Origin: Clostridiales bacterium
Lineage (GTDB): Bacteria > Bacillota > Clostridia > Christensenellales > Aristaeellaceae
DNA: 43,473 bases
Reading direction: 5' to 3'
Assembly (NCBI GenBank): GCA_012520375.1
Contig: JAAYOH010000029.1
Location: 1 to 43,473, forward strand
Below are positions 32,173 to 35,179 of the stretch, in pieces. Made by a program: the position numbers and the translations under genes. The notes beneath the pieces are model-generated. The model was not told the DNA's origin. It worked only from the letters and a program-made list of their open reading frames with translations, and did no database searches. Within the stretch, counting starts at the first letter, position 1; each line of letters begins with the position of its first letter.

Positions 32173-33570
<1,398 letters not shown>

Positions 33571-33590
33571 AAGGATCACACGACCCATAA

Positions 33591-33630
33591 CCGACAGTTC
33601 GAAGCCCTCCTGTCGCTAAACAAAACCAGG
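33591..33630 (+). promoter_or_regulatory. preQ1-I-type riboswitch aptamer upstream of queT
   Basis: P1 is CGACAG (33592-33597) with CTGTCG (33610-33615). The 12-nt loop (33598-33609) contains CCT, which can pair with AGG at 33628-33630 as the pseudoknot. Between them is the A-rich strand CTAAACAAAACC, closely like the tail of known preQ1-I aptamers. The aptamer stands between asnS and a queuosine-precursor transporter gene, followed 12 nt later by an intrinsic terminator. Loop bases GCCCTC (33604-33609) could instead pair with GGGGGC of the terminator's 5' arm, giving a ligand-off antiterminator; ligand would then turn queT off. Confidence 0.72.
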
Positions 33631-33642
33631 TTCCGTCTGACT

Positions 33643-33670
33643 GCGGGGGCACGATGCTCCCGCTTTTTTT
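33643..33670 (+). terminator. Intrinsic terminator of the preQ1 riboswitch
   Basis: A 9-bp stem (33643-33651 with 33655-33663), loop of 3, followed by seven T (33664-33670). It lies before the queT ribosome binding site GGAGG (33673-33677), so it controls entry into queT. Confidence 0.85.
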
Positions 33671-33682
33671 CTGGAGGTATTT

Positions 33683-34168
33683 ATGAAAAACACTACGCGG
33701 CTCACCCGTGCCGCCTTGGTTGCCGCCTTGTACATCGCCATCACCCTCCTGTTTCAGCCCATCAGCGGCTTTTCCGGACAGTTTCAACTGCGGATATCCG
33801 AAGCCTTGACCCTTCTCCCTGTCCTCATGGAGGAGGCTGTGCCCGGGCTCTTTGTGGGGTGTCTGCTGGCCAACTTGTTGGGGGGCGGGACCCTGCTGGA
33901 TATCCTCTTCGGCTCCCTGGCCACCCTGGCTGCTGCCGTATGGACGCGGAAACTACAGGGGAGGCCTGTGATGGCGGCATTGCCTCCGGTACTCGTGAAT
34001 ATGCTGGTGGTGGGCACGGTGCTGGCCTTTACCCTGAAACTGCCCTGGCTTCCCAGCGTACTGTGGGTGGGCCTAGGACAAGCAGCGGCTTGTTATGGGC
34101 TGGGCCTGCCCCTCGTCCTCTTGATCCTGAAGCGAAAACCGCCCATCCAAGACACATACTTGAAATAA
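33683..34168 (+). CDS. queT: QueT-family queuosine precursor (preQ1) transporter substrate-binding subunit
   Basis: 161-residue integral membrane protein of the ECF-type S-component family QueT. About five to six hydrophobic helices are visible. The RAALVAALYIAITLLFQPIS start and QLRISEALTLLPVL are typical, as is VGCLLANLLGG. It takes up preQ1/queuosine precursors with a shared energising module (EcfAA'T) not in this window. It has a GGAGG ribosome binding site 6 nt upstream. The preQ1-type leader in front strongly supports the substrate. Confidence 0.88.
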   Translation: MKNTTRLTRAALVAALYIAITLLFQPISGFSGQFQLRISEALTLLPVLMEEAVPGLFVGCLLANLLGGGTLLDILFGSLATLAAAVWTRKLQGRPVMAALPPVLVNMLVVGTVLAFTLKLPWLPSVLWVGLGQAAACYGLGLPLVLLILKRKPPIQDTYLK

Positions 34169-34192
34169 ATTAAATAAATAAGTCAAAAACCA

Positions 34193-34221
34193 TTGACAAC
34201 GAAATAGATTTGTAATATAAT
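34193..34221 (+). promoter_or_regulatory. Consensus promoter of the SH3b/PG-binding exoprotein gene
   Basis: TTGACA (34193-34198), 17 nt, TATAAT (34216-34221): a perfect housekeeping consensus in an AT-rich gap after queT. Confidence 0.82.
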
Positions 34222-34255
34222 CAGCCTAAGAGAAATTTCCTTAGGAGGGCTGATT
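34219..34255 (+). promoter_or_regulatory. Inverted repeat over the start region and ribosome binding site
   Basis: AATCAGCC (34219-34226) is the exact inverse of GGCTGATT (34248-34255). Inside it, CCTAAG (34225-34230) mirrors CTTAGG (34240-34245). The repeat begins in the -10 hexamer, includes the GGAGG ribosome binding site and ends at the ATG. It could be an operator for a dimeric regulator; in RNA the inner arm could mask the ribosome binding site. Confidence 0.55.
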
Positions 34256-35179
34256 ATGGACTGCGATCCTGTTTATAAGGGAAAAAAGACCTTTCTGTCC
34301 CTTTTCATCATCCTGATGCTTCTTCTTTGGCTTCCCTTGACGGCTACCGCAGCTATGTACAAAGTTGCCAAAGGATGCAGGATTTATACTTCCGTCGGCA
34401 AAGGCAGCAAGGTGTTTGCCACGCTGAAAAAAGGCGACACCATCACGGTGGAAGCTGTAAAGGGAAAATGGGCACAGGTGAAGAAAAGCGGGAAGACAGG
34501 CTATGTGCAAAAAGTTTTCCTGAAAAAAACCAGGCAAAAGGTCGCGTCCAAGAAAAGTGCCTCAGGCACACGGAGATCGTCCATGCGCAGTATCCAGAAC
34601 CGATTGAACGAAAAGGGATACCTGGACGCCTCTGCCGTGACCGGAAAGAACAATGCCTCTACCATGAAGGCCCTACGCATATTCCAGATGATGAACGGCC
34701 TTCGAGCCACGGGAAAGGCCAACAGCATAACGGTGCGAAAGCTCATGAGCCCTTCCGCCAAAAAACGGGGGCGCGTGAACTACGACAGCTGGTCCAAATG
34801 CGGCATCAGCCGCCACCTGAAAGACGGAAGCTGCGCCACAGTGGTAGACATGGCCACAGGGCGACGCTTCGCAATCCGCCGGGTAGGGGGCAGCGAACAC
34901 CTGGATGTGGAGCCCAAACGGGCCTCGGATACCGCGATCCTGAAGAAACTGTACGGCGGCAACTGGAGCTGGGACAGCCGGGCAATCCTTTTGATCGCCG
35001 GCGGCCGGTACTATGCAGCGGCCATGAACTCCATGCCCCACGGCACCCAGATCAGCAGAAGCAACAACTATCCCGGGCATTTGTGCATCCACCTGAAGGA
35101 TAGCCGTACCCACGGGACCAACCTGACAAACACGGCACACCAGGCCAATATCAGAAAGGTCATTCAGTATTTTACATGA
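34256..35179 (+). CDS. Secreted SH3b and peptidoglycan-binding protein with conserved C-terminal domain
   Basis: 307 residues. A signal peptide (FLSLFIILMLLLWLPLTATAA) ends near 32. A bacterial SH3 domain follows at about 34-88 (CRIYTSVGKGSKVFATLKKGD), then a PG_binding_1-like domain at 108-165 (SIQNRLNEKGYLDASAVTGK). The C-terminal domain, about 170-307, has HLDVEPKRASDTAILKKLYG, WSWDSRAILLIAGG and the motif GHLCIHLKDSRTHGT. That last domain recurs in clostridial wall-associated proteins without known activity; its conserved His, Cys and Ser suggest but do not prove catalysis. Basic overall, likely wall-bound. It is monocistronic, with a very strong promoter. Confidence 0.82.
   Translation: MDCDPVYKGKKTFLSLFIILMLLLWLPLTATAAMYKVAKGCRIYTSVGKGSKVFATLKKGDTITVEAVKGKWAQVKKSGKTGYVQKVFLKKTRQKVASKKSASGTRRSSMRSIQNRLNEKGYLDASAVTGKNNASTMKALRIFQMMNGLRATGKANSITVRKLMSPSAKKRGRVNYDSWSKCGISRHLKDGSCATVVDMATGRRFAIRRVGGSEHLDVEPKRASDTAILKKLYGGNWSWDSRAILLIAGGRYYAAAMNSMPHGTQISRSNNYPGHLCIHLKDSRTHGTNLTNTAHQANIRKVIQYFT

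Follow-up and report, generated by a model that had tools for sequence, protein, structure and literature searches.

The locus upstream of queT

The window, by which we mean the whole stretch of 43,473 nucleotides that was analysed, encodes on its forward strand an asparagine--tRNA ligase (asnS) and, directly downstream, queT. The latter matches the Pfam QueT family, in agreement with an earlier note on this DNA that had named a transporter gene fitting the element described here; at an E value of 0.001 its product has no NCBIfam match. QueT is described in the literature as the S component of an ECF transporter. Between the two genes lie a compact hairpin with an A-rich tail, a terminator and a Shine-Dalgarno sequence, as follows:

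32173..33570, + strand: asnS, asparagine--tRNA ligase (NCBIfam PRK03932, E 4.6e-194)
33592..33597, + strand: P1 5' strand, CGACAG (sequence; alignment of 29 aptamers)
33598..33609, + strand: loop of twelve bases, U6 to C17, with U6 and U7 at 33598-33599, C8 at 33600, G12 at 33604, U16 at 33608 and C17 at 33609 (alignment A1, position counts; numbering of the Can riboswitch after PMC8752633)
33604..33610, + strand: 5' arm of the proposed antiterminator, sharing bases with the ligand-binding loop (transcript folding)
33610..33615, + strand: P1 3' strand, CTGTCG (sequence, covariation)
33616..33625, + strand: A-rich L3, with A30 at 33625 (sequence, alignment A1)
33626..33630, + strand: 3' tail, C31 C32 A33 G34 G35; proposed ceiling pair of C32 (33627) with G12 (33604), from 12-32 covariation
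33643..33650, + strand: proposed antiterminator 3' arm, GGGGGC at 33645-33650 plus 33643, overlapping the terminator 5' arm (transcript folding)
33643..33663, + strand: intrinsic terminator hairpin, 9 bp, GC-rich, loop CGA (-15.6 kcal/mol; terminator scan)
33664..33670, + strand: T7 tract of the terminator (sequence)
33673..33677, + strand: Shine-Dalgarno sequence GGAGG, 3' of the terminator (sequence)
33683..34168, + strand: queT, preQ1 transporter, ATG at 33683 (Pfam PF06177, 139.5 bits, E 1.2e-40)

Only 21 bases separate the end of asnS from the aptamer, and a promoter scan of 33400-34400 found no consensus promoter between them. Further downstream, a perfect sigma-70 consensus promoter (TTGACA and TATAAT, spacing 17) lies 3' of queT at 34193-34221, where it precedes a gene for an SH3/peptidoglycan-binding protein.

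Assignment to the class I preQ1 riboswitches

Judged from its sequence, the stretch 33592-33630 represents a class I preQ1 aptamer, downstream of which lie the terminator (33643-33670) and then queT; the P1 hairpin and the A-rich 3' tail could together form an H-type pseudoknot. At their gathering thresholds, none of the Rfam families matched anywhere in the window. A permissive Rfam scan of 161 bases gave seven matches, among which PreQ1 (RF00522) ranked second with 13.3 bits, against a gathering cut-off of 39 that is an annotation threshold and represents no structural feature; the best alignment spans the whole aptamer in the expected register. The Rfam covariance check proposed in the earlier note thus found the right register and fell short on score. 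The match ranked first, sroE (17.4 bits, opposite strand), was rejected as a chance-level match because its score is far below its own cut-off of 51.

Covariance models were, therefore, built from relatives. QueT loci were collected as the best 30 matches from the window's family and 80 from named genomes, yielding, with the window's own two copies, 112 upstream regions; 51 of these rows, two of them the window, passed a scan for a hairpin plus tail. Model R1 comprises 29 aptamers, the window among them. Model R3 comprises 12 aptamers from genomes whose titles name other families, presumably distinct from the window's (Lachnospiraceae, Eubacteriaceae or genera such as Blautia, Roseburia, Acetatifactor, Falcatimonas and Alkalibaculum); model R2 comprises 16 aptamers from named genomes, namely, the 12 of R3 with L056, L060, L079 and L108, whose family is uncertain. 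Both match 33592-33632, R3 with 45.4 bits (E 2e-10 over 43 kb) and R2 with 43.6 bits (E 4.5e-10), the runner-up matches in the window scoring 14.7 or 14.8 bits. A covariance match in relatives, the absence of which the earlier note would have counted against its proposal, is, therefore, present with models that exclude the window's genus.

Within alignment A1 (29 aptamers), every P1 cell that holds letters forms a standard pair (100%); four of the six pairs have changed on both sides, with 47 cells carrying two-sided changes, and as a control, sliding the P1 partners by one to three columns lowers the pairing to 26-41%. Together with the R2 and R3 scores, this covariation bears out the preQ1-I-type aptamer that had been proposed at 33591-33677, and the A-rich tail attributed to it is found at 33616-33630. 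In the pseudoknot helix P2, covariation was examined for contact 12-32 only. In several relatives, a possible longer P2 can be made out by eye, to which the loop would contribute CC and the tail GG; this helix and contact 12-32 could not be nested.

A strict descriptor (UUC, UC before the P1 3' strand, P1 of at least 5 bp and an AAAAC[CU]A tail) has a single match in the window and two in 200 order-2 Markov copies searched on both strands, a chance rate of ~0.01 per window. Folding of the complete leader is no better than that of its shuffles (z -0.51). An alternative reading is that the hairpins are merely the 3' terminator of asnS and that the aptamer is a look-alike arising by chance. Although asnS ends at 33570 with no consensus promoter found in between, the aptamer is conserved and covarying upstream of queT in places lacking asnS: that gene is the immediate upstream neighbour in just six of 129 queT rows, two of these being the window itself and the others a genus mate (L020), L106, L131 and L135, of which the last two share a genus code. 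Moreover, the low expectation for the descriptor, the covariation in P1 and the matches to R2 and R3 all contradict a chance resemblance, and we regard this explanation as scarcely credible. Since tRNA-Asn carries queuosine (PMC11477304), the asnS-queT neighbourhood makes sense, and a switch at this position may permit transcription of asnS while that of queT is halted.

Type I signature and the ceiling of the binding pocket

Type I is the largest group of preQ1 riboswitches and the one with two stacked ligands. Its published signature is UU after P1, UC before the P1 3' strand and a conserved C in the tail, whereas type II has AC before the P1 3' strand (PMC11625349, PMC8752633). The window carries UU at 33598-33599, UC rather than AC at 33608-33609, and C31 at 33626; moreover, it keeps six out of six bases through which type I aptamers read two stacked preQ1 molecules, namely, U6, U7, U16, C17, A30 and C31 (PMC8752633). 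By the published signature, its sequence makes the aptamer type I. The window RNA would presumably bind preQ1, and the number of ligand molecules is likewise an inference.

The departure from the known type I aptamers lies in the ceiling of the pocket. In type I, this is formed by C8-A12-U32, with U32 preferred, although the published text presents this as a preference rather than a requirement (PMC8752633). The window has G12 and C32 in place of A12-U32, such that its tail reads CCA and departs from the CUA preference; this is the main respect in which the loop proves to be a variant, as the earlier note had thought it might be on finding it unlike the best known aptamers. On the sequence, therefore, the element appears to be a member of a known riboswitch family with one base pair of the pocket swapped.

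The same swap recurs in relatives. A scan that demanded G5, UUC, UC, C18 and AAAAC, and that left positions 12 and 32 free except for refusing AA at 32-33, gave 159 distinct stretches. Among the 130 with twelve-base loops, 106 have A12/U32 and 23 have G12/C32, the sole exception (L186) combining G12 with a shifted tail. The thirteen-base loops comprise seven A/U, two G/C and one A/C, and those of 11, 14 and 15 bases do not clearly follow the 12-32 rule. Position 12 shares 0.69 bits of mutual information with position 32, compared with 0.56 for position 15. The latter is C in all 24 twelve-base G12 loops, yet C15 also occurs in four A12/U32 loops, and both thirteen-base G/C loops have A at the equivalent position; base 12, therefore, explains base 32 better than base 15 does. 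Indeed, two aptamers that share one genus code (L178 and L184) are identical from P1 to G35 except for the changes A12 to G and U32 to C. When base 12 alone is labelled on a quick QueT protein tree with many weak forks (104 of 110 rows, namely, those whose loop has 12 or 13 bases and whose QueT is no shorter than 110 residues), it needs seven changes, and at least four of these changes are forced by well-supported branches.

A study of 2013 reported that preQ1 switches may have either G or A as the purine of their ceiling, A being accompanied by U16 and G by A16, with exceptions among those with A (PMC3764141). The window differs in that its G occurs together with U16 and C32. Literature searches for the contact brought up no description of such a combination, and the terms G12 and C32 are absent from the accessible text of PMC8752633; it may nonetheless have been seen before.

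The closest known system is the Can riboswitch of Carnobacterium antarcticus (class I type I; PDB 8fb3 according to PMC11625349), which shares with the window the H-type pseudoknot, UU after P1, UC before the P1 3' strand, the A-rich L3, C31 in the tail, G9 and the use of 12-32 as the ceiling contact (PMC8752633). It differs in having A12-U32 as its ceiling, and in carrying a Shine-Dalgarno sequence in the aptamer tail where the window has a terminator. The C7+-G11-C30 ceiling of the type II switch from T. tengcongensis resembles the C-G-C ceiling of the window (PMC11625349), but type II aptamers have AC instead of UC before the P1 3' strand and the bases of one ligand site only. It is conceivable, though we would hold the idea tentatively, that C8-G12-C32 in place of C8-A12-U32, with U16 and all ligand-reading bases kept, defines a natural and recurrent form of type I that would link the two-ligand type to the one-ligand type as an intermediate, with a changed stoichiometry or cooperativity.

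Alternatively, the fold might have come to recognise a different ligand (preQ0, queuine or guanine), with the ceiling swap as the mark of that change. Changes in the pocket can alter the ligand of a riboswitch, and the ceiling here does depart from the type I preference; however, C17 and C31, the readers of the two ligands, are retained. Moreover, copies with G/C and with A/U ceilings precede the same gene, queT, and no synthesis of preQ1 by QueC and QueF was found in the window's own genome (see below). A change of ligand is accordingly improbable, and we retain preQ1 as the presumed ligand.

Expression platform

An intrinsic terminator is present in the sequence between the aptamer and the start codon, just as had been claimed: a hairpin at 33643-33663 followed by T7. 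Taken by itself, the terminator scan is not above chance, with two sites found against 1.4 expected. The earlier note had also pointed to an alternative pairing of GCCCTC with GGGGGC as a mutually exclusive switch. In predicted folds of the growing transcript, P1 persists up to 33642, a small second hairpin appears from 33639, and other pairings displace P1 from 33645; for transcripts ending at 33650-33657, the best fold includes 33604-33609 paired with 33645-33650 (-15.0 to -16.5 kcal/mol). For those ending at 33651-33654, this antiterminator fold has -16.3 kcal/mol versus -6.2 kcal/mol for P1 alone, and once the terminator is complete, P1 plus the terminator win at -24.6 kcal/mol, all of these energies excluding the pseudoknot and the ligand. 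The proposed pairing, therefore, stands as a predicted fold, but its strength does not set it apart: the duplex energy in the window is within the expectation from dinucleotide shuffles (p 0.125). The same test over all 110 QueT-linked rows gave a mean z of +0.29 for the terminator class (51 loci including the window, one at p 0.05), +0.39 for the control class with a close start codon (41 loci, none at p 0.05) and -0.29 for the remaining class (18 loci, two at p 0.05). As the pairing is no stronger than in shuffled platforms, we treat the antiterminator as a plausible, reasonable model and no more.

Very probably, the element is a riboswitch of the preQ1-I kind (class I, type I) through which transcription termination shuts off queT. 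At low preQ1, loop bases 33604-33609 of the nascent hairpin would pair with 33645-33650 in the 5' arm of the terminator, allowing RNA polymerase to continue into queT. When preQ1 is plentiful, the ligand would lock the H-type pseudoknot between the loop and the tail (33626-33630), in a pocket that offers, beneath a G12-C32 ceiling, the bases needed by both of the stacked preQ1 molecules; with the loop thus unavailable, the terminator (33643-33670) would form and queT would be left untranscribed. The point of decision would lie at about 33650. Both the sign of this response and control through ligand-induced termination are presumptive.

Within class I type II, the Bacillus subtilis switch acts on transcription and that of T. 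tengcongensis on translation (PMC11625349); the window would share its terminator mechanism with the former. The type I switches with functional data, namely, those of Can and of Listeria monocytogenes queT, act on translation, and in 41 of 110 queT-linked aptamers, the start codon is 25 bases or fewer from the aptamer tail (twelve-base A/U loops in 36 of these, 13- or 14-base loops in five). The L. monocytogenes switch resembles the window in being a type I aptamer before queT, and is reported to bind two preQ1, but it is translational and has a different expression platform (PMC12519234). By analogy, preQ1 binding in the window might act mainly by hiding the ribosome-binding site; against this, 42 bases lie between the aptamer and GGAGG, and they contain the 9-bp hairpin and T7. 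We consider translational control unlikely here, and favour termination.

The start codon is close in 36 of 77 A/U rows versus none of 24 G rows (Fisher 4.5e-6, on raw counts). We do not claim that the G-C ceiling goes with terminators, as just four independent pairs are left on the QueT tree; the rows were sorted into terminator classes by a simple script, and some class calls are weak.

Genes controlled and queuosine metabolism

The 220 loci contain 131 aptamers distinct from one another over the first 75 bases, and 110 of these have a QueT match downstream, a linkage that is partly by design because many loci were fetched through QueT. Among the 81 in loci fetched by the aptamer model, QueT lies downstream of 60 and genes read as queuosine genes downstream of a further 19, with too little DNA for the remaining two. 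By eye, the translations next to the 19 aptamers without a QueT match are QueT-like or YhhQ-like transporters, QueF or QueC; Pfam agrees for the five proteins scanned from four such loci (QueT, Vut_1 twice, QueC and QueF).

The window's own genome encodes queA and two TGT-family genes; besides the tgt adjoining queA, the second TGT-family protein (308 bits) is at C54:243-1298 (L119). Neither a match for QueF nor a true QueC was found in this genome, the sole QueC-like stretch being ThiI; with the genome 95% complete, this absence is strong, albeit short of proof. The organism apparently lacks the usual route to preQ1 and would then depend on its import, as expected for a queT switch.

Distribution and implications

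Model R1 matches 161 of 308 genomes of the family at E 0.05, some of the matches being weak, and 55 of 398 genomes phylum-wide at E 0.001, the window's genome included. Among the places listed in the family genomes, 119 have E < 1e-6 and 17 span the hairpin only; nine of the 13 hairpin-only places that were fetched belong to aptamers with an insert before the A-rich tail. Other model matches in the window's own genome score low; one of them, a preQ1-type hairpin of 22 bits that lacks an A-rich tail (C94:8996-9019; L251 1501-1524), would be a chance match or a remnant. Two pairs of R1 matches lie ~300-500 bases apart on one strand (G440:C1 1044518 and 1044834; G520:C103 982 and 1480), and are perhaps tandem or neighbouring switches.

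Two structural variants were also seen. In 23 of 159 aptamers (24 rows minus L039, which looks spurious), an additional hairpin, of several unlike sequences, separates P1 from the A-rich L3: L045, L046, L048, L051, L053, L054, L069, L089, L208, L209, L211, L212, L215, L216 and L217, all of which have G12-C32, and L075, L087, L097, L099, L103, L201, L202 and L207. The aptamers with 15-base loops (L188, L190, L193, L196-L200, L203-L205, L218 and L219) have UUC, then mostly AUU or GUU, and end in CC[AU]UC, the 12-32 rule being inapplicable to them in simple numbering; the 12 of these 13 that were read lie upstream of YhhQ-like transporters or queC.

RF00522 exceeds its cut-off in none of the 308 family genomes and gives a weaker match in 63; in 17 loci from relatives, it gave three matches at E 1, none above the cut-off. 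The preQ1 switches of this bacterial family, therefore, go unannotated at Rfam's cut-off. Moreover, a ceiling contact that has been swapped several times in evolution lends sequence-based support to the 12-32 contact of the crystal structure, and the G12-C32 and A12-U32 aptamers constitute a natural series for asking what effect the ceiling has on two-ligand binding.
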